Shown piece by piece: positions 16,689-24,548 of a stretch of 64,000 bases of DNA. Source of the DNA: Heliomicrobium modesticaldum Ice1. GTDB lineage: Bacteria > Bacillota > Desulfitobacteriia > Heliobacteriales > Heliobacteriaceae. Location: contig NC_010337.2 in NCBI RefSeq assembly GCF_000019165.1, positions 2,471,501-2,535,500 of the forward strand, written 5' to 3'. Both the position numbers and the translations under genes were made by a program. A model generated the notes under the pieces. It was not told the origin of the DNA. It was given only the letters and a program-made list of their open reading frames with translations, and did no database searches. The stretch's first letter is position 1. Every line of letters starts with the position of its first letter.

Positions 16689-17456
16689 TTACATGGCGAA
16701 GAGGTGTCCGCCAATTTGAGTGGTAATCACCCGCTGACGCATCCAGCCGTCAGAGGACTTATCGGGGTTAAAGAAGAAAAGGGCGCCTTTAGAGGGATCC
16801 CAACCAGCCAGGGCGTCCTGCGCCGCCTTTTGGGAGAGGGCGCTCGCTGGTCGATTGATCATGCCGTTTCTCACCGGCGTAAACTGCAAGGGATCATAGA
16901 TGACGCCGGAGATGGAAGATGGGAACTTTCCGCTTTTTATCCGGTTGAGCACCACAGCGCCGACGGCCACTTTGCCTTCGTAAGGCTCGCCGGAGGCCTC
17001 CGCCTCGATCAACCGCGCCAGCAGGTCCAGGTCAGACTGGCCGACGCCGTTGCTTGCCCTCTGACTTTGCCGGTCGATCCCCGTAGGCACCTTGAGCACC
17101 TGGCCGGGATAAATGTCGTTGGTAATCATCCCGTTCAGCTCCTTGATCGCCCAATCAGTGGAGCTGAAGCGGTTGGCGATCAGATAGAGGCTGTCGCCCG
17201 ATCTGACGGTGTAGGTGGAGACATCGGGAATGTTCAGCACTTTGCCTGTTGGGAGGTTGTTAGGCGCCACCTGATTGGCGCCTTGAATCAGCGTCCAGGG
17301 GAGGCCAAAGCGCTGACCCAACGAGTAAAAGGTGTCACCCGGTTGAATCGTATACTGCCAGGCATGGGCCGGCGTTGCGGTGGCGCCTCCCCAGATCAGG
17401 AAGGTAAACGCTGCCGACAGCATCCCGGCACGTAGCCAAGAGCGACGAAAGACCAT
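16689..17456 (-). CDS. Secreted LysM cell-wall hydrolase (SleB-type, Hydrolase_2)
   Basis: About 255 aa from ATG 17456. A signal peptide ends at PAHA-WQ. Two LysM peptidoglycan-binding repeats follow (YTIQPGDTFYSLGQRFG... and YTVRSGDSLYLIANRF...). The C-terminal domain is SleB/CwlJ-like: LLARLIEAEASGEPYEG, VGAVVLNRI, VIYDPLQFTPV, DALAGWDPSKGALFFFNP. The catalytic Glu of this family lies in EAEASGEPYEG. The enzyme would cut peptidoglycan or spore cortex outside the membrane. The start is uncertain: TTG 17477 or ATG 17465 would also work, but the GGAAAGG RBS fits 17456 best. A c-di-AMP riboswitch precedes it. Confidence 0.88.
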   Translation of the reverse strand: MVFRRSWLRAGMLSAAFTFLIWGGATATPAHAWQYTIQPGDTFYSLGQRFGLPWTLIQGANQVAPNNLPTGKVLNIPDVSTYTVRSGDSLYLIANRFSSTDWAIKELNGMITNDIYPGQVLKVPTGIDRQSQRASNGVGQSDLDLLARLIEAEASGEPYEGKVAVGAVVLNRIKSGKFPSSISGVIYDPLQFTPVRNGMINRPASALSQKAAQDALAGWDPSKGALFFFNPDKSSDGWMRQRVITTQIGGHLFAM

Positions 17457-17476
17457 GTAAAGGATCATCCTTTCCA

Positions 17477-17622
17477 AGCGCCTTCGGAGTTAGCTGACGG
17501 GTTGGGCCAGAAAGGTTGGCCTTCTTCCGAAGAAGATTCACCCCTCGCAACCGGAAATCGGCTGCAGAACGACCTAGTGAGGGCCGCGGTTCCTCCGTAC
17601 CCCAGCTGGGGATTCGGCGTTT
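17477..17622 (-). promoter_or_regulatory. Cyclic-di-AMP riboswitch (ydaO-yuaA class)
   Basis: Read on the minus strand, the leader has AATCCCCAGCTGGGGTACGG (17617 to 17598), then GAGGAACC, GGGGTGAATC and near the 3' end AACCCGTCAGCTAACTCCG. These conserved segments, in this order, are those of the ydaO riboswitch. In other Firmicutes this class usually shuts off cell-wall hydrolase and K+ transport genes when c-di-AMP is high. The downstream gene is a secreted LysM hydrolase, the expected target. The 3' end runs almost into the RBS. Confidence 0.88.
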
Positions 17623-17640
17623 TATTTTTGGTTCCCCGCA

Positions 17641-17669
17641 ATTATACCGGCTTGGACAGACACTGTCAT
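17641..17669 (-). promoter_or_regulatory. Promoter of the c-di-AMP riboswitch transcript
   Basis: On the minus strand: ATGACA (17669-17664), 17-base spacer, TATAAT (17646-17641), just upstream of the riboswitch. Confidence 0.75.
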
Positions 17670-17833
17670 GACGATCATTTTTCCTGAGGCGGTAGGGCTT
17701 GGACAGTTTCCCAGGTTTGACGCCTCTATAAGAGCCATGTTGACGCTCTGTCTAAAGATCGCAGCAGCATTTGAGCAGGAAAAGTGTCCAATTTGTTGAA
17801 ATGTCGGAAAAATGCAAATAGGAGGTGTGCCTT

Positions 17834-19555
17834 GTGCAACAACGGCATGAGATCGTCACCCAACTGTTCAATTGGGTGGCCATCATCAATGCTTCTCACA
17901 ACCCCATCATCGCCACTGACCATGAGGGGCTGGTGCGCGTCTTCAACAAGGCCGCCTCCCGCGCCTTTGGCAAAGAAACCCGCGACGTCATCGGAATGCC
18001 CTTTGAGGCTGTCGTCCCCAAGTGCCGCCTCCGGGAGACGATTCAAACGGGCCAACCCCTAACTGGCCTGCGTTTTAGCTACCAGGAGCGGGTCTTTCTC
18101 GTCAACCTGACTCCCATACTGCGAAAACAGCAGCTCGTCGGCGCCGTGGCGATCTTTCAAGACATGACCGAGTTGGAGTCTGTTGTGGAGGAACTCAATC
18201 GGGTCAAGGAATTAAAGGGCACCCTGGAAGCGATCTTGGAGGCCGCCTATGACGGGATCATCGTCGTCAACGCCGAGGGTATCATCACCATGGTCAATCA
18301 AGCCTGTTGCAATTTCCTCGGTTTTCGCGAGTCCGATCTGCTGGGCCGCCATGTGGCCAACATGGTGGAGGGGACGCGCATGCATATCGTCTTGCAGACA
18401 GGACAAGCCGAAGTAGGCGATTTACAGCGCACCGGCGGCCATGACTACATCGCCATGCGCATCCCCATCGTGAAAGATGGACAGGTCGTTGGGGCTGTCG
18501 GCAAGATCATGTTCAAAAACGTAAATGAACTGAACGCGCTGGCTTCGAAGATCAATTCCCTTCAAAAAGAACTCCATTACTACAAGGAAGAACTGCAAAA
18601 GTACCGGGGCGCCCGCTACAGCTTTGACGCCGTAGTCGGAACCAGCTACGCCATCCGGATGATCAAGGATACGGCCCGGCAGGTGGCTCGCACCGATTCG
18701 ATCGTCCTGCTCCGGGGAGAGAACGGCACAGGCAAACAACTGTTGGCCCATGCTATGCACATCGAGTCAGAACGGAGAGAAGGCCCCTTCATTCAAATCA
18801 GCTGCAGCGGAATCAGACCGGAGTCCCTCGAGATCGAACTATTCGGCAGCGCCGTCGACGCACCCGGGGCATCATCGTCAGGCAAGTTTGCCCTTGCCCA
18901 CCGGGGGACGCTGTACATTACCGATATCGGCGACATGCCGCTGCCTGCACAAGCCCGGTTGTTCCGGCTGCTGCAAGGTCAATTGCCCCTCGTCGACAGC
19001 CCCGACGGCCCGGTGATCGCCGATGTTCGACTGATCGTCTCAACAAACCGCCATCTCGAGGAGATGGTCCGCAAAGACCTCTTCCGAGAGGATCTCTACA
19101 ACCGGTTGAACGTGATCAGCCTCTTCATCCCGCCGTTGCGTGATCGCAAGGAGGACATCCCTGAACTGGTCTCCCTCTTTATCCAGAATTTCAACCGCCA
19201 ATTTGGTTTTTCTGTCCAGAAGGTGACACGGGAAGCTATGCAGGTCCTGATCAACTACCATTGGCCGGGTAATGTGAGGGAACTGCACTCGTTGATCGAG
19301 CGGATCTACGACCGGGTCAAAGGCGACACGATCGATGTAGGCCACCTGCCCATGCACCTGCAAAAATTCAACCACACGGACGCGACAGCGCCTCAGTCAC
19401 AAAGCCTGCAAGCCCTCCTGGAAGAGACAGAAAAAACGGCGATCCTGCAGGCCTTGCAGTCCGCCAATGGCAACAAGGTGCAGGCGGCCCAATTGCTCGG
19501 GATTTCCCGTGCCGGCCTCTACCAGAAGTTGGCTAAGTACCAAATTGAAGAGTGA
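17834..19555 (+). CDS. PAS-PAS-AAA+-Fis regulator resembling sigma-54 activators but lacking GAFTGA
   Basis: 573 aa from GTG 17834 (GGAGG 8 bases upstream). Two PAS domains (about 15-105 and 130-235) precede an AAA+ domain with VVGTSYAIRMIKDTA, Walker A GENGTGKQ (295-302) and arginine-finger segment DLFREDLYNRLNVISLFIPPLRDRKEDI. The C-terminal Fis-type helix-turn-helix (about 530-573) reads QAAQLLGISRAGLYQKLAKY. The sigma-54-contact loop GAFTGA is missing: ELFG is followed by DAPGAS (342-347) and the intervening segment is short. Walker B reads LYITDIGD rather than LFLDEIGD. It is probably a TyrR-like regulator that acts without sigma-54. Divergent from the LysM hydrolase. Confidence 0.85.
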   Translation: MQQRHEIVTQLFNWVAIINASHNPIIATDHEGLVRVFNKAASRAFGKETRDVIGMPFEAVVPKCRLRETIQTGQPLTGLRFSYQERVFLVNLTPILRKQQLVGAVAIFQDMTELESVVEELNRVKELKGTLEAILEAAYDGIIVVNAEGIITMVNQACCNFLGFRESDLLGRHVANMVEGTRMHIVLQTGQAEVGDLQRTGGHDYIAMRIPIVKDGQVVGAVGKIMFKNVNELNALASKINSLQKELHYYKEELQKYRGARYSFDAVVGTSYAIRMIKDTARQVARTDSIVLLRGENGTGKQLLAHAMHIESERREGPFIQISCSGIRPESLEIELFGSAVDAPGASSSGKFALAHRGTLYITDIGDMPLPAQARLFRLLQGQLPLVDSPDGPVIADVRLIVSTNRHLEEMVRKDLFREDLYNRLNVISLFIPPLRDRKEDIPELVSLFIQNFNRQFGFSVQKVTREAMQVLINYHWPGNVRELHSLIERIYDRVKGDTIDVGHLPMHLQKFNHTDATAPQSQSLQALLEETEKTAILQALQSANGNKVQAAQLLGISRAGLYQKLAKYQIEE

Positions 19556-19609
19556 TCCGCGAGCAGCGCCGACTTTCATTGGGCAGAGCGAACCGATCGA
19601 GCATAGATA

Positions 19610-19637
19610 CCCTGAACCTTCTGGTTCGGGGTTTTTT
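19610..19637 (+). terminator. Rho-independent terminator after the PAS-AAA regulator
   Basis: Stem CCCTGAACC/GGTTCGGGG, loop TTCT, then T6. Confidence 0.88.
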
Positions 19638-19707
19638 CCGTTTCATGCATAGAGAACTTCAGTGAACCAAAAAATAGGGCAGACAGGTCTAATAGGAGGG
19701 GAGAACA

Positions 19708-20259
19708 ATGCGCTGTTGCAATGCTTTTTTCGCCATACTGCTCACGGCGGCCTTCGCGTTCGCCGGGTGGCAGGGCGTGAACCAACCGCTGTCGGACGCC
19801 CCATGCGGCTTCTCTGCTTGGAAAGCAGGCGGTAACGCTGACGCGAAGGCAGTTTGGAATCTGCCTGCCGCTGAAGCAGAAACAGGACAAGGGTATCCAA
19901 AACGGGGAGACGAGACGATGCTGGCTCGGGCAATCCACGGTGAAGCCAGGGGCGAACCGTATGAAGGACAAGTCGCCGTTGGCGCCGTCATTATCAACCG
20001 AACAAAACATGCATCCTTTCCCAATTCGGTCCACGGCGTCATCTTTCAACCGGGCGCCTTTACGGCCGTCAATGACGGTCAGATCTGGACACCCTTAAAA
20101 CCGACTGATTCGGCCAACAAGGCGGCACGCGACGCCCTGGCCGGCTGGGACCCCACCGGCGGATGCATCTACTACTGGAACCCGGCGACGGCGACGAGTC
20201 GGTGGATCTGGAGTCGGCCCGTCGTCAAGCAGATCGGCAAACACTATTTCGCCAAATGA
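19708..20259 (+). CDS. sleB: Spore cortex-lytic enzyme SleB (short form without PG-binding domain)
   Basis: 183 aa. A signal peptide (residues 1-20) is followed by a short linker and the Hydrolase_2 catalytic domain: MLARAIHGEARGEPYEG with the catalytic Glu, VGAVIINRTKHASFPNSV, FTAVNDGQIW and ARDALAGWDPTGG. SleB degrades spore cortex during germination and is normally stabilised by YpeB, which is encoded 49 bases downstream. Bacillus SleB has an N-terminal peptidoglycan-binding domain; it is absent here. The RBS is GGAGGGGAG. Confidence 0.92.
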   Translation: MRCCNAFFAILLTAAFAFAGWQGVNQPLSDAPCGFSAWKAGGNADAKAVWNLPAAEAETGQGYPKRGDETMLARAIHGEARGEPYEGQVAVGAVIINRTKHASFPNSVHGVIFQPGAFTAVNDGQIWTPLKPTDSANKAARDALAGWDPTGGCIYYWNPATATSRWIWSRPVVKQIGKHYFAK

Positions 20260-20308: not shown

Positions 20309-21823
20309 ATGAGCGAAATCCGAGATCGCGATGAAACCCCTGTTGATGATCATCGTCTCATTGAAGAAACGAACCACCTACGCAAGGTCAAAAAAACGCT
20401 CAGTGTCGTCGCTGGCCTGCTGGGGGTCACAACAGCGCTCTTCGGCTACCTTGGATACCAACAGTACGTGCAGAACCAGGCGTATCAGATGGCCGTAGAA
20501 AACCGATACCAGCGCGCCTTTGCCGACCTGTCAAGCAACGTGGAGAATATGGAGTTGGAAATGTCTCGCCTGCTGGCCAGCAATTCGCCCAATCAGGCCG
20601 TCATGGGGCTCCAGCAGGTGTCACGCCAAGCCAGTGAGGCATCGGCCAACATGGGGCAACTCCCCCTAGCGACACTCCTGTTGAGCCGAACCCATCGCTT
20701 CATCAACACAGTCGACGATTTTTCCACCACGTTGGCTGAACGCAAAGTCGATGGAAAGGCAGCCCTCACCGCTGCTGAAAAGAAAACCCTCGGCGAACTG
20801 CATCGCCAGACCACCTTCTTGCGCGATGAGTTGGGCAAGATGGGCGAACAATTGAACGAGCGCCGGGTCACCTGGGTCGCCCTGGAGAAACAGGCGCGGC
20901 AGCAGGAGCAGCAAGGATCAAAACAACAGACGGCCTTGGGACAGTTCTGGCAGCGTGTTGTCGCCGCCGTGGCTGGTCAGGGACCAGAGACACAGGCGCC
21001 ACCTATTTTGGCTAACTTCCAGTTTGTCGAGAATGAACTGCAAAAATATTCACCTGTCGAGTACGACGGTAGACATTCCGAGCAGATCCAGATCACCCCG
21101 CGCGGGCTCGGGTCAGGTCAGATCACGCAAGAGCAGGCTATCTCCATCGCCCAGTCTTGGATCGGTCAAGGTCCTCTCGCCGGTCACCAGGTACGGGTGA
21201 CCGGGGAAGGAAAGGCCGCCATTCCCGCCTACGGTATTGGCGTATATCCCAACGACGCCCCTAATGAAAACAGGATCGCCATGGAGATCTCCAAAACAGG
21301 CGGCCATGTGATCTGGATGCTAAAAGAACGCCCAGTCGGCACACCAGTGATCAGCCGCGACGAAGCCGCCGCCGTCGCCCGTGACTTCCTAAGCCGCCGC
21401 GGCCTGAACAACTTTGAAGCGACAGCAGTCGAAGAGTATCAGAGCCTCGCCGTCGTCACCTTGGTTCCGCGAGACGGCAATATCAGCCTTTATCCGGACA
21501 AGATCAAGGTCCGCGTTGCCATGGATGACAAAGAGGTCCTAGGCTATGACGCGACTGCCTATCTGACCTTCCATACCAACCGCAACCTGCCAGTGCCTAA
21601 GATCAGTCGAGAAGAAGCCCGTAAGCGCGTCGCTTCCGATGTAACCGTTACCGGCGACAAACTGGTGTTGCTGGCTAAGGACAATTACCAAGAGCTCCTC
21701 TGCTGGGAGTTCAAGGCCGTCCGGGATAACATGACCTATCTCGTCTATATCAACACCCAGACAGGCCGAGAGGAGCGGATCTTCCGAGTGATCGAGACGA
21801 ACGCGGGCACTTTCATCTTCTGA
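20309..21823 (+). CDS. ypeB: Germination protein YpeB
   Basis: 504 aa. One N-terminal membrane anchor (about residues 30-52) is followed by a long helical region (about 55-230) and three C-terminal YpeB/PepSY-type repeats. Each repeat pairs a segment such as ITQEQAISIAQSWIG, ISRDEAAAVARDFL or ISREEARKRVASDV with a following beta-sheet, which is the known YpeB layout. YpeB keeps SleB stable in the dormant spore. It forms an operon with sleB. A strong terminator follows at 21911. Confidence 0.92.
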   Translation: MSEIRDRDETPVDDHRLIEETNHLRKVKKTLSVVAGLLGVTTALFGYLGYQQYVQNQAYQMAVENRYQRAFADLSSNVENMELEMSRLLASNSPNQAVMGLQQVSRQASEASANMGQLPLATLLLSRTHRFINTVDDFSTTLAERKVDGKAALTAAEKKTLGELHRQTTFLRDELGKMGEQLNERRVTWVALEKQARQQEQQGSKQQTALGQFWQRVVAAVAGQGPETQAPPILANFQFVENELQKYSPVEYDGRHSEQIQITPRGLGSGQITQEQAISIAQSWIGQGPLAGHQVRVTGEGKAAIPAYGIGVYPNDAPNENRIAMEISKTGGHVIWMLKERPVGTPVISRDEAAAVARDFLSRRGLNNFEATAVEEYQSLAVVTLVPRDGNISLYPDKIKVRVAMDDKEVLGYDATAYLTFHTNRNLPVPKISREEARKRVASDVTVTGDKLVLLAKDNYQELLCWEFKAVRDNMTYLVYINTQTGREERIFRVIETNAGTFIF

Positions 21824-22022: not shown

Positions 22023-22745
22023 ATGCTCATTGCCGTCGGTGTTTCCGCCAGGCACCTTCACCTCAGCGATGAACACCTAGAGATCCTCTTTGGCCAGGGC
22101 TACCGCCTGACGCCGAAACGCCACTTGTCCATACCGACGCAGTATGTCTGTGAAGAGCGGGTTAGCATCCGGGGAGCCCGCGGGGCCATCCACAACGTGG
22201 CCATCATCGGACCGACCCGCGCCCAAACACAGGTAGAGGTGACGCGTACAGACGCCGTCACCCTTGGCGCAAACCCTCCGATCCGCCTCTCCGGTGACCT
22301 GGATGAAAGCGCCCCTGTCACCATCACCGGACCGAAGGGCCAAGTTGAATTGCCCGAAGGCTTAATCGTAGCCATGCGTCACATCCATATGACTGAGAAA
22401 GACGCCGATGAGCTCGGTTTCAGTCACAAGGACTATGCCATGGTGATCGTTCCCGGACCGCGCAGCCTCGTCTTTGACCATGTCGTTGTCCGGGTTGCCC
22501 GGGAAAATACCCACACGGAACTGCATATCGACACCGATGAGGCCAACACGGCTGCACTCTCCAATGGAGAAAAGGTCAATCTCCTGCGCATCAACGATAA
22601 AAAGATCCGTCTCGAACAACTGATCGCAATGTTCGATGAGCGTCAGTTGAAACAGGTCGAGGCTTGCATCGCCAACATTGTCGCCGAAGAGCGTCGCAAG
22701 GTGGCGGAAATGGAGGACATGCTGGCCTTGTTGCGCAAAGGCTAG
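22023..22745 (+). CDS. pduL: Phosphate propanoyltransferase/phosphotransacylase (PduL family) with C-terminal extension
   Basis: 240 aa. PduL exchanges CoA for phosphate on acetyl- or propionyl-groups using two zinc ions. The two zinc-binding motifs are visible: VSARHLHLS near the N-terminus and AMRHIHMT at about 117-124. The body of both beta-barrel repeats (IHNVAIIGPTR, RLSGDLDESAPVTITGP) fits the family. About 45 charged helical residues after position 195 (EQLIAMFDERQLKQVEACIAN and on) are extra relative to a typical ~200-aa PduL. No microcompartment genes surround it. The next gene begins 22 bases later. Confidence 0.9.
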   Translation: MLIAVGVSARHLHLSDEHLEILFGQGYRLTPKRHLSIPTQYVCEERVSIRGARGAIHNVAIIGPTRAQTQVEVTRTDAVTLGANPPIRLSGDLDESAPVTITGPKGQVELPEGLIVAMRHIHMTEKDADELGFSHKDYAMVIVPGPRSLVFDHVVVRVARENTHTELHIDTDEANTAALSNGEKVNLLRINDKKIRLEQLIAMFDERQLKQVEACIANIVAEERRKVAEMEDMLALLRKG

Positions 22746-22767
22746 CTGCATGAAAGGAACGACAGCT

Positions 22768-23742
22768 GTGCGTCTGGGAGAACTCTATCAGTGGCTCTTG
22801 CAAGAGGGCATTGCCGCCGACCCCCGCTCCCGCGAGGAGGTGGAAGCGCTGCTGGCAGCGCGAAAAAAAGCCGTCACTGGCAGCATGGACAAGGCGACCC
22901 GCCTTGCCGATGACGGTCAATGGGATAACCCCTATGGCGACACACGTATCCTCTACGGCGAGGCAGATAGGGAAGTGCGCAGGGTTCTCGCCGGCATCGA
23001 CATTGACGGAGCGGAGCTGCTTTTGGCTGACCGCTGGCGCGAACGGGGCAAGCCGATCGATCTGGTCATTGCTCACCATCCGGCGGGACGCGCCCTTGTC
23101 CAGCTGCATCAAGTCATGAAGGTCCAAGAAGACCTCTTGGCCGCTGCAGGCATCCCGATCAACGTAGCAGAAGCCATTATGGCAGACCGTATCGAAGAGG
23201 TACGCCGATCGCTTTTACCGTCGAACCATCAGAAGGTGGTCGACCTGGCTCGCCTTCTCGATATTCCTTTTCTCTGTGTCCATTCGCCGGCTGACAACAA
23301 AGTGCAAAGATACCTCAGCGAGTACCTGACAGCAGACCGGATCGGTCCGGAAAAGACGCGGACTGTCCGGGATATTGTCGATGCCCTCCTCGATCTTCCG
23401 GAATTTCAACTGGCCGCCGGTCACGGCGTAACGCCGCAGGTTATTGCCGGTAAGAACGATGACCGGGCAGGAAAGATCTATATCAAGATGAACGGCGGAA
23501 CATCAGGTCCTGAACAATCGATTGAGGCACTGGTTAAGGCGGGCGTCGGGACAATGGTCTGTATGCACCTCCCAGAGTCGCAGCGCAAAAAGGCGGCAGA
23601 GGCTAAACTGCGCGTCGTCATCGCCGGACACATGGCCTGCGACTCTCTGGGCATGAACCTTTTGCTGGATGGTCTAGAACGCCAAGGCGTCGAGGTGCTG
23701 TCCTGCGCAGGATTGTTGCGGTATCAACGCGATAGCGCCTAA
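22768..23742 (+). CDS. NIF3-like (NGG1p-interacting factor 3 family) protein
   Basis: 324 aa from GTG 22768, chosen for AAAGGA at good spacing; ATG at 22750 is possible but has no RBS. The core has IDLVIAHHPAGRAL, the NIF3-type metal motif, followed by GIPINVAEAIMADR and DIPFLCVHSPADN. It ends with KMNGGTSGPEQSIEALV and VVIAGHMACDSLGMNL, matching the second metal site region. NIF3-like proteins are di-metal hydrolase-fold proteins of uncertain function. It sits in a likely operon with pduL. Confidence 0.78.
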   Translation: MRLGELYQWLLQEGIAADPRSREEVEALLAARKKAVTGSMDKATRLADDGQWDNPYGDTRILYGEADREVRRVLAGIDIDGAELLLADRWRERGKPIDLVIAHHPAGRALVQLHQVMKVQEDLLAAAGIPINVAEAIMADRIEEVRRSLLPSNHQKVVDLARLLDIPFLCVHSPADNKVQRYLSEYLTADRIGPEKTRTVRDIVDALLDLPEFQLAAGHGVTPQVIAGKNDDRAGKIYIKMNGGTSGPEQSIEALVKAGVGTMVCMHLPESQRKKAAEAKLRVVIAGHMACDSLGMNLLLDGLERQGVEVLSCAGLLRYQRDSA

Positions 23743-23860
23743 ACTTCTTATGATCCATAAGGCCAGGTCATATTCTATAACTGTAAAGCCATCCCGTCGG
23801 TAATCACCAACAAAAGATAGATCTTGCCGAAAAAACTACCGCAAGTTATACTCCTGTTGT

Positions 23861-23940
23861 AAGGACAATGGTGTCCTTTTGAGACGACGGCGTTTCCTCC
23901 GAATGAAATTAACGCATTCGGTCGATGCGTCTTTTTATTT
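23861..23940 (+). promoter_or_regulatory. Attenuator-like leader with an ANTAR-type hairpin, upstream of the ANTAR gene
   Basis: Three hairpins are visible. Hairpin 1 (23861-23878) is AAGGAC-AATGGT-GTCCTT, a hexaloop with A at loop position 1 and G at position 4, the pattern reported for ANTAR-bound RNA. An antiterminator-like stem pairs CCGAATG (23899-23905) with CATTCGG (23915-23921). A competing terminator stem pairs ACGCAT (23912-23917) with ATGCGT (23925-23930) and is followed by CTTTTTATTT. The last two cannot coexist. The coding TTG starts 20 bases later. Confidence 0.6.
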
Positions 23941-23960
23941 TTGCTGAGGAGGGGACGCCG

Positions 23961-24548
23961 TTGAACGGGTTACGCATTTTTTTGGCGATGCCGGCCGGTC
24001 CTCTTCGCGATAAGGTAAAGGACTCCCTTAGCCGGCATGGATACGTCATCATCGGCGAGGCCGCCGATGGGATGACAGCATTACGGTCGCTGCACAAGTT
24101 GCTGCCTGATCTCGTTATTATTGAGATGCAGCTGCCCGCACTGGACGGATTAGAACTGGCCAAGCTGTGCCAGGAGGAGCAGTTGGGCGCTGCTGTCTTG
24201 CTCACCCCCTACAACCAGTTAGGAACTGTGCAGAGGGCGCTTGAGACCTGGCTTTTTGAGCCACTAATCCGCCCTATCCGTGAAGAAGCGCTGCTAGCCG
24301 CCGTTGTCACCGCCTATACTCATTATATGCGGGAAGCGCGCCTCACAAGAGAAGTTCATGAACTCAAGGAAGCCTTGGAAAAACGGAAACTGATCAACCA
24401 AGCCAAACGACGGCTCATGGAGAAGTTGCACGTCAACGAGGATGAGGCCCATCGCATCCTCCAGCGCTATGCGATGAACCACCGCATAGCGAGCAAGGAG
24501 GCAGCCTCACGGATTCTTAAAGTTTACTCCCATGATGAAAGGGCGTAA
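23961..24548 (+). CDS. Response-regulator-like protein with ANTAR RNA-binding domain and degenerate receiver
   Basis: 195 aa from TTG 23961 (GAGGAGGGG upstream). Residues 5-120 have a receiver fold, but the phospho-acceptor Asp is Glu55 (LVIIEMQLP) and the conserved Lys is Arg104 (PLIRPI). A coiled coil (about 120-145) leads into an ANTAR domain (about 145-190) with the helical RRLMEKLHVNEDEAHRILQRYAMNHR pattern, here split in two motifs RRLMEKLHVNEDEAHR and ILQRYAMNHR. ANTAR proteins bind tandem hairpins in nascent RNA to prevent termination. The Asp-to-Glu change suggests phosphorylation-independent activity. The gene has its own attenuator-like leader. Confidence 0.88.
   Translation: MNGLRIFLAMPAGPLRDKVKDSLSRHGYVIIGEAADGMTALRSLHKLLPDLVIIEMQLPALDGLELAKLCQEEQLGAAVLLTPYNQLGTVQRALETWLFEPLIRPIREEALLAAVVTAYTHYMREARLTREVHELKEALEKRKLINQAKRRLMEKLHVNEDEAHRILQRYAMNHRIASKEAASRILKVYSHDERA

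Follow-up and report, generated by a model that had tools for sequence, protein, structure and literature searches.

About 110 homologues of enhancer-binding proteins (EBPs) deviate from GAFTGA, the Firmicute protein YplP being among those named, and NtrC-family proteins with a defective motif, such as TyrR, DhaR, HupR and VpsR, are precedents for action at sigma-70 promoters (PMC3162934). The NtrC proteins of Rhodobacter capsulatus and Caulobacter carry a deletion in loop 1, and that of R. capsulatus, which lacks GAFTGA, is reported to use the binding of ATP rather than its hydrolysis (PMC10274813). EBP homologues with a broken GAFTGA are already known as a kind, and the sigma-54 independence of loopless NtrC-family proteins has often been argued from sequence alone.

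Here we describe a regulator from Heliomicrobium modesticaldum Ice1 whose gene lies in a 64-kb window (the whole stretch of DNA analysed, 64,000 nucleotides). With an NtrC-type AAA+ domain, a helix-turn-helix and no GAFTGA, the protein fits the loopless, sigma-54-independent NtrC-family class, to which its family is a new addition; we found no description of a link between this family and spore genes in the literature searched.

Like TyrR of E. coli and PhhR, which act at sigma-70 promoters, the regulator is an NtrC-family protein with a defective GAFTGA (PMC3162934). Unlike TyrR, it has no ACT domain, its helix-turn-helix is the Fis-type HTH_8 (HTH_50 reaches only 19.4 bits against a cut-off of 27), and it scores 217 bits with the NCBIfam TyrR model, whose cut-off is 576. 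VpsR of Vibrio cholerae also combines an AAA+ core with a defective GAFTGA (PMC3162934), and its structure (PDB 7v2b) matches the AAA+ core of the regulator with an E-value of 2e-37, but the N-terminal half of the regulator consists of two PAS domains. DhaR of E. coli, a sigma-70-dependent AAA-HTH protein with no working GAFTGA (PMC3162934), is distinguished by the 278 bits that the regulator scores with the NCBIfam DhaR model (cut-off 551), and no dihydroxyacetone kinase genes were seen adjacent to the regulator. In YplP of B. subtilis, likewise an EBP homologue from a Firmicute, GAFTGA carries a deletion (PMC3162934), but YplP is described as a cold-shock regulator, a distinction drawn from that description. 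The R. capsulatus and Caulobacter NtrC proteins share the loop 1 deletion, but they are two-component response regulators, whereas the H. modesticaldum regulator is a one-component PAS protein. Closest by sequence, and of the same architecture, are PrdR and a set of PAS-type EBPs (L067-L089, 40-45% identity). In contrast to the regulator, L067-L089 carry GAFTGA and an intact Walker B, and none lies within 1.5 kb of sleB; the PrdR model (NCBIfam NF041552) gives the regulator 388.8 bits against a cut-off of 795.

A PAS-type AAA+ protein without GAFTGA

The regulator gene begins with a GTG codon preceded by a ribosome-binding site (AGGAGG at 17820), and the Pfam matches of its product comprise two PAS domains, Sigma54_activat (PF00158, 138.8 bits), AAA_lid_14 and HTH_8 (Table 1). 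PAS domain 2 resembles the cytoplasmic PAS domain of CitA. The AAA+ domain can be aligned along its whole length with FleQ and other NtrC-type structures, loop 1 excepted, where residues 335-349 (ELFG-SAVDAPGASSS) stand against ELFGHEKGAFTGA in FleQ and against GAFTGA in the paralogues, the segment falling a few residues short of the normal length of one that contains GAFTGA. Walker B reads LYITDIGD rather than LFLDE, with T for the conserved D and D for E, and sensor II (WPGNVRE) is intact. A predicted structure based on three input sequences had a pLDDT of 46.5 (below 40 across most of the AAA+ domain) and a pTM of 0.27, and was set aside.

Table 1. Features of the regulator locus, in positions of the 64-kb window.
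Feature	Position	Strand	Basis or detail
Loopless NtrC-family regulator, 573 aa, PAS-PAS-AAA+-lid-Fis HTH	17834..19555	+	ORF and Pfam
PAS domain 1	17873..18166	+	Pfam PF00989, residues 14-111
PAS domain 2	18224..18505	+	Pfam; PDB 5fq1/8bjp, E ~6e-17
Walker A GENGTGK	18716..18736	+	kept in 7/7 orthologues
Loop 1 remnant SAVDAPGASSS at the GAFTGA place	18848..18880	+	alignments
Degenerate Walker B LYITD	18911..18925	+	alignment with orthologues
Arginine-finger segment FREDLYNR, intact	19082..19105	+	alignment
Fis-type helix-turn-helix	19418..19540	+	PF02954, 54.5 bits, cut-off 22
SigH-type promoter of regulator, GCAGGAAAA-N11-GTTGAAATG	17775..17803	+	11-bp spacing shared
Intrinsic terminator 3' of regulator	19609..19632	+	hairpin and T-run, also in orthologous loci
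Forespore SigG-type promoter of sleB-ypeB, GCATA-N18-AAAAATA	19647..19676	+	consensus match
sleB	19708..20259	+	TIGR02869, 200.6 bits (below cut-off 236.5); PF07486; adjoins ypeB
ypeB	20309..21823	+	TIGR02889, 366 bits, above cut-off
Divergent LysM and SleB-type wall hydrolase	16689..17477	-	PF07486, PF01476
c-di-AMP riboswitch (ydaO/yuaA) leading the hydrolase	17465..17629	-	Rfam RF00379, 86.7 bits, gathering 38
SigA-type promoter of hydrolase, ATGACA-N17-TATAAT	17641..17669	-	11/12 matches
Array of four TGTCYAA boxes	17652..17791	.	17652-, 17699-, 17749+, 17785+

Nine Heliobacteriaceae genomes were searched for orthologues, among them H. chlorum, H. mobile and two Heliorestis-like genomes (G006 and G007). 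Seven genomes carry one, including the source genome (a single contig of 3,075,407 bases), and the other six proteins share 52-93% identity with the regulator; none was found in G003 or G005, and a search at the level of the order yielded no further genomes. The seven orthologues form one clade (support 1.0), and PAS domain 1 is missing from those of G006 and G007, whose match begins only at residue 105-106.

GAFTGA is absent from every orthologue. The remnants in its place read DAPGASS, DAPGTSS, FDGGI (in two species), GKSPALP and EFQGRDDDPSAN, with a complete deletion in G006, and in the alignment this variety is the pattern of a freely drifting loop. Because all seven lack the loop and their remnants differ, sequencing error was ruled out as its cause. 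The 23 nearest relatives outside the family all have GAFTGA together with an intact Walker B, and so we conclude that loss of the loop preceded the divergence of the orthologues. The initial annotation had read a PAS-PAS-AAA+-Fis architecture with ELFG followed by DAPGAS instead of GAFTGA, and both points are borne out. Its ITDIGD version of Walker B is correct for this protein but is no family trait, given that TD occurs in only four of the seven orthologues; G008 has EE (LEE) and the Heliorestis-like proteins an intact DE, with which they may still hydrolyse ATP.

This patchy loss of motifs, a changed arginine finger in G008 and the absence of the gene from two genomes could be taken as signs of a gene decaying towards loss. 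However, the reading frame is open in all seven genomes, the helix-turn-helix is conserved across the orthologues, and dN/dS is 0.13 for the gene of H. modesticaldum against that of G004 and 0.02 for H. chlorum against H. mobile. Decay is thus extremely improbable, and the pseudogene reading was rejected. Purifying selection preserves the gene, though not every part of the ATPase cycle.

The regulator and sigma-54

Two Pfam models of sigma-54 domains (PF04552 and PF04963) find matches in seven of the nine genomes, that of H. modesticaldum included, and none in G006 or G007. Completeness exceeds 90% for both of these genomes (G007 is a single 3.2-Mb contig), and each retains the regulator next to sleB-ypeB. 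Since the gene persists in two genomes that lack sigma-54, the regulator almost certainly works independently of this factor; their retention of the gene is the strongest evidence for independence and needs no reading of the motif. Compared with sigma-54 activators (bEBPs), the regulator has the Sigma54_activat domain but neither GAFTGA nor a Walker B DE, and sigma-54 is not present in every genome that carries it.

A contrary view is that the regulator is still a sigma-54 activator, touching the factor by a substitute loop. H. modesticaldum does possess sigma-54, and the AAA+ fold, Walker A and arginine fingers of the regulator are kept. Against this, the remnant varies freely in length and sequence up to outright deletion, Walker B is altered in five of the seven orthologues, and a loose scan upstream of the regulator and of sleB found no -12/-24 site, the kind of promoter that the initial annotation had named as evidence against its own proposal. 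The two sigma-54-less carriers nearly refute such contact for the Heliorestis-like members, and with loop drift and deletion they led us to reject a substitute loop, which we regard as very improbable for the family.

Four strong EBP-type proteins are encoded in the source genome: L001 and L002 have GAFTGA, and the regulator and L003 have none. In G006 and G007 the strongest EBP matches are the regulator and a loopless response-regulator type (L026/L027), and so every remaining strong EBP relative in the sole sigma-54-less genus is loopless.

L026 and L027, together with L061 (4833-6647; G000:C1:381702-382214), represent another family of loopless NtrC-type proteins in heliobacteria, independent of the first, with a receiver-AAA+-HTH arrangement, WEPPGPAKAGNEAK or a deletion at the GAFTGA place, and IRD or LKE in Walker B. 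This family is also retained in the sigma-54-less genomes. A diverged loopless AAA+ protein of the regulator's class in G007 (L035, G007:C1:15115-15933) is possibly a third loopless regulator.

With sigma-54 eliminated, and with TyrR, DhaR, HupR and VpsR as precedents, the regulator probably controls sigma-70-family promoters. The initial annotation had proposed sigma-70-type promoters in the manner of TyrR; independence from sigma-54 is upheld by the two genomes lacking it, but the likeness to TyrR holds only broadly.

Promoters and neighbours of the regulator gene

Promoters recognised by SigH have the consensus RnAGGAwWW-N11-12-RnnGAATww. A candidate of this type, with an equal 11-bp spacing and in a similar position, precedes the regulator in six of the seven genomes, where AGGARAA-N14-GAAW lies some 50-70 bases upstream of the start. 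It persists in G006 and G007, in which the upstream DNA is otherwise unalignable, and the match fails in G008. Scores in the six genomes are 13-14 of 15 against the consensus, with a shuffle P of 0.004-0.11 each, a match that is modest taken alone. Both H. modesticaldum and H. convoluta are reported to have SigH, E, F, G and K (PMC7143216).

In all seven carrier genomes the regulator lies directly upstream of sleB-ypeB, and within the fetched stretches the order is selA, selD, bshC, regulator, sleB, ypeB, pduL and a Nif3-like gene, least complete in G008. Beyond ypeB, window positions 22023-24548 hold pduL, the Nif3-like gene and an ANTAR response regulator, which are linked to ypeB in several heliobacteria. 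Neither sleB nor ypeB occurs within 1.5 kb of any of the 23 GAFTGA relatives. Since the whole block from selA-selD-bshC to pduL is syntenic, the adjacency of regulator and sleB is suggestive but not proof of a functional tie.

The placement just upstream of sleB-ypeB in the initial annotation is correct and conserved, but sleB has a promoter of its own behind a terminator. This promoter (GCATA/GTATA-N17/18-AAAAATA) agrees with the SigG consensus at 10 of 11 positions in six genomes and at 9 of 11 in the seventh, and it could possibly also match SigF; the consensus is GNATA/CAWAMTA, and sleB is among the SigG genes (PMC3416734). With a terminator and a conserved forespore-type promoter between them, the regulator is no operon partner of sleB-ypeB.

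The regulator might still act directly on that forespore promoter, as a repressor or an activator. The invariant adjacency, which holds even where the divergent hydrolase is missing, favours direct control, as does G003 (~99% complete), which has no match to YPEB_PepSY1-2 and lacks the regulator too. However, conservation between terminator and sleB is confined to the SigG-type promoter and the bases immediately 3' of it, no TGTCYAA box is found in that interval, and G005 has sleB-ypeB without the regulator, which is therefore dispensable for these genes. On balance we consider direct control unlikely.

On its other side the regulator faces a wall hydrolase, the divergent gene of the initial annotation, which is present at five of the seven orthologous loci and missing from G006 and G007. 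The intergenic stretch 17465-17629 does not offer free operator space, being occupied by a c-di-AMP riboswitch that belongs to the divergent gene; this leader is conserved in the alignment with G004, H. chlorum, H. mobile and G008. Upstream of it, the SigA-type promoter of the hydrolase is conserved in four genomes with a spacer of 17 or 18 bases.

Between the facing genes lie four TGTCYAA boxes, where 0.05 would be expected, out of 18 in the window. In H. modesticaldum the first sits inside the spacer of the hydrolase promoter and the last inside that of the regulator promoter, and sites placed like this within core promoters would be in keeping with a repressor. The same region holds two of the three close direct TGTCYAA pairs in the genome. 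The idea that such pairs are unique to the locus was rejected when a wider gap range gave the third, and pairs elsewhere in relatives, some of them within tandem repeats. Three boxes occur in each of H. chlorum and H. mobile, in orientations and positions that partly differ from those of H. modesticaldum, and G004 has one exact box and near-matches. G008 has no such array and none was seen in the Heliorestis-like genomes, which rules the array out as the ancestral target.

For the protein that binds these boxes the regulator is our predicted first choice, and Spo0A is the main rival. The Spo0A box is TGTCRAA, one base class away from TGTCYAA, and sporulation genes are known to combine a SigH promoter with 0A boxes, a design that the locus would fit. 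The array could then belong to another factor such as Spo0A, with the regulator acting on unlinked genes and its place beside sleB-ypeB being inherited synteny, to which the syntenic block lends some weight. Against this, no TGNCGAA box occurs in the array region except for one in H. chlorum, and the near confinement of close TGTCYAA pairs to the locus in this genome would be odd for a global regulator. We judge this alternative rather improbable.

Proposed role and significance

Our best reading is that the regulator is a TyrR/VpsR-like, autoregulated protein linked to sporulation. Overall, we lean slightly towards the explanation that a former sigma-54 activator is now a DNA-binding, sporulation-linked regulator of sigma-70-family promoters. 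Most likely the regulator senses through its PAS domains, for which the initial annotation had tentatively suggested a small-molecule signal; it would oligomerise with nucleotide bound and contact DNA through the Fis helix-turn-helix, so that the PAS domains and the bound nucleotide would form a switch in place of ATP hydrolysis as a motor. Its action would then dispense with the ATP-driven remodelling on which sigma-54 depends. The nearest targets would be the SigA-type promoter of the facing hydrolase and the regulator's own SigH-type promoter, both of which it would most likely repress via the TGTCYAA boxes in and between the spacers. We give autoregulation plus control of the facing hydrolase an even chance. 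SigH-type expression and the fixed linkage to sleB-ypeB would place the work of the regulator at the onset of sporulation, in the remodelling of wall and cortex, a predicted role for which the odds seem evenly balanced.

More tentatively, the family may represent a lineage-specific escape, in which the loop was lost in the heliobacterial ancestor, the gene came under SigH and was drawn into sporulation and the control of cortex and wall hydrolases, and strong loopless relatives outlasted the loss of sigma-54 in the Heliorestis-like lineage. The order of events can likely be read across the seven genomes, with loop loss first, Walker B degraded or kept, and sigma-54 lost in one lineage. Evolution has here performed a deletion test, the regulator being retained in two related genomes that have no sigma-54, and the family offers a way to study how an ATP-driven activator turns into an ordinary regulator. 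For heliobacterial biology, the locus suggests that phototrophic Firmicutes possess a regulator of sporulation or wall remodelling that has so far gone undescribed.
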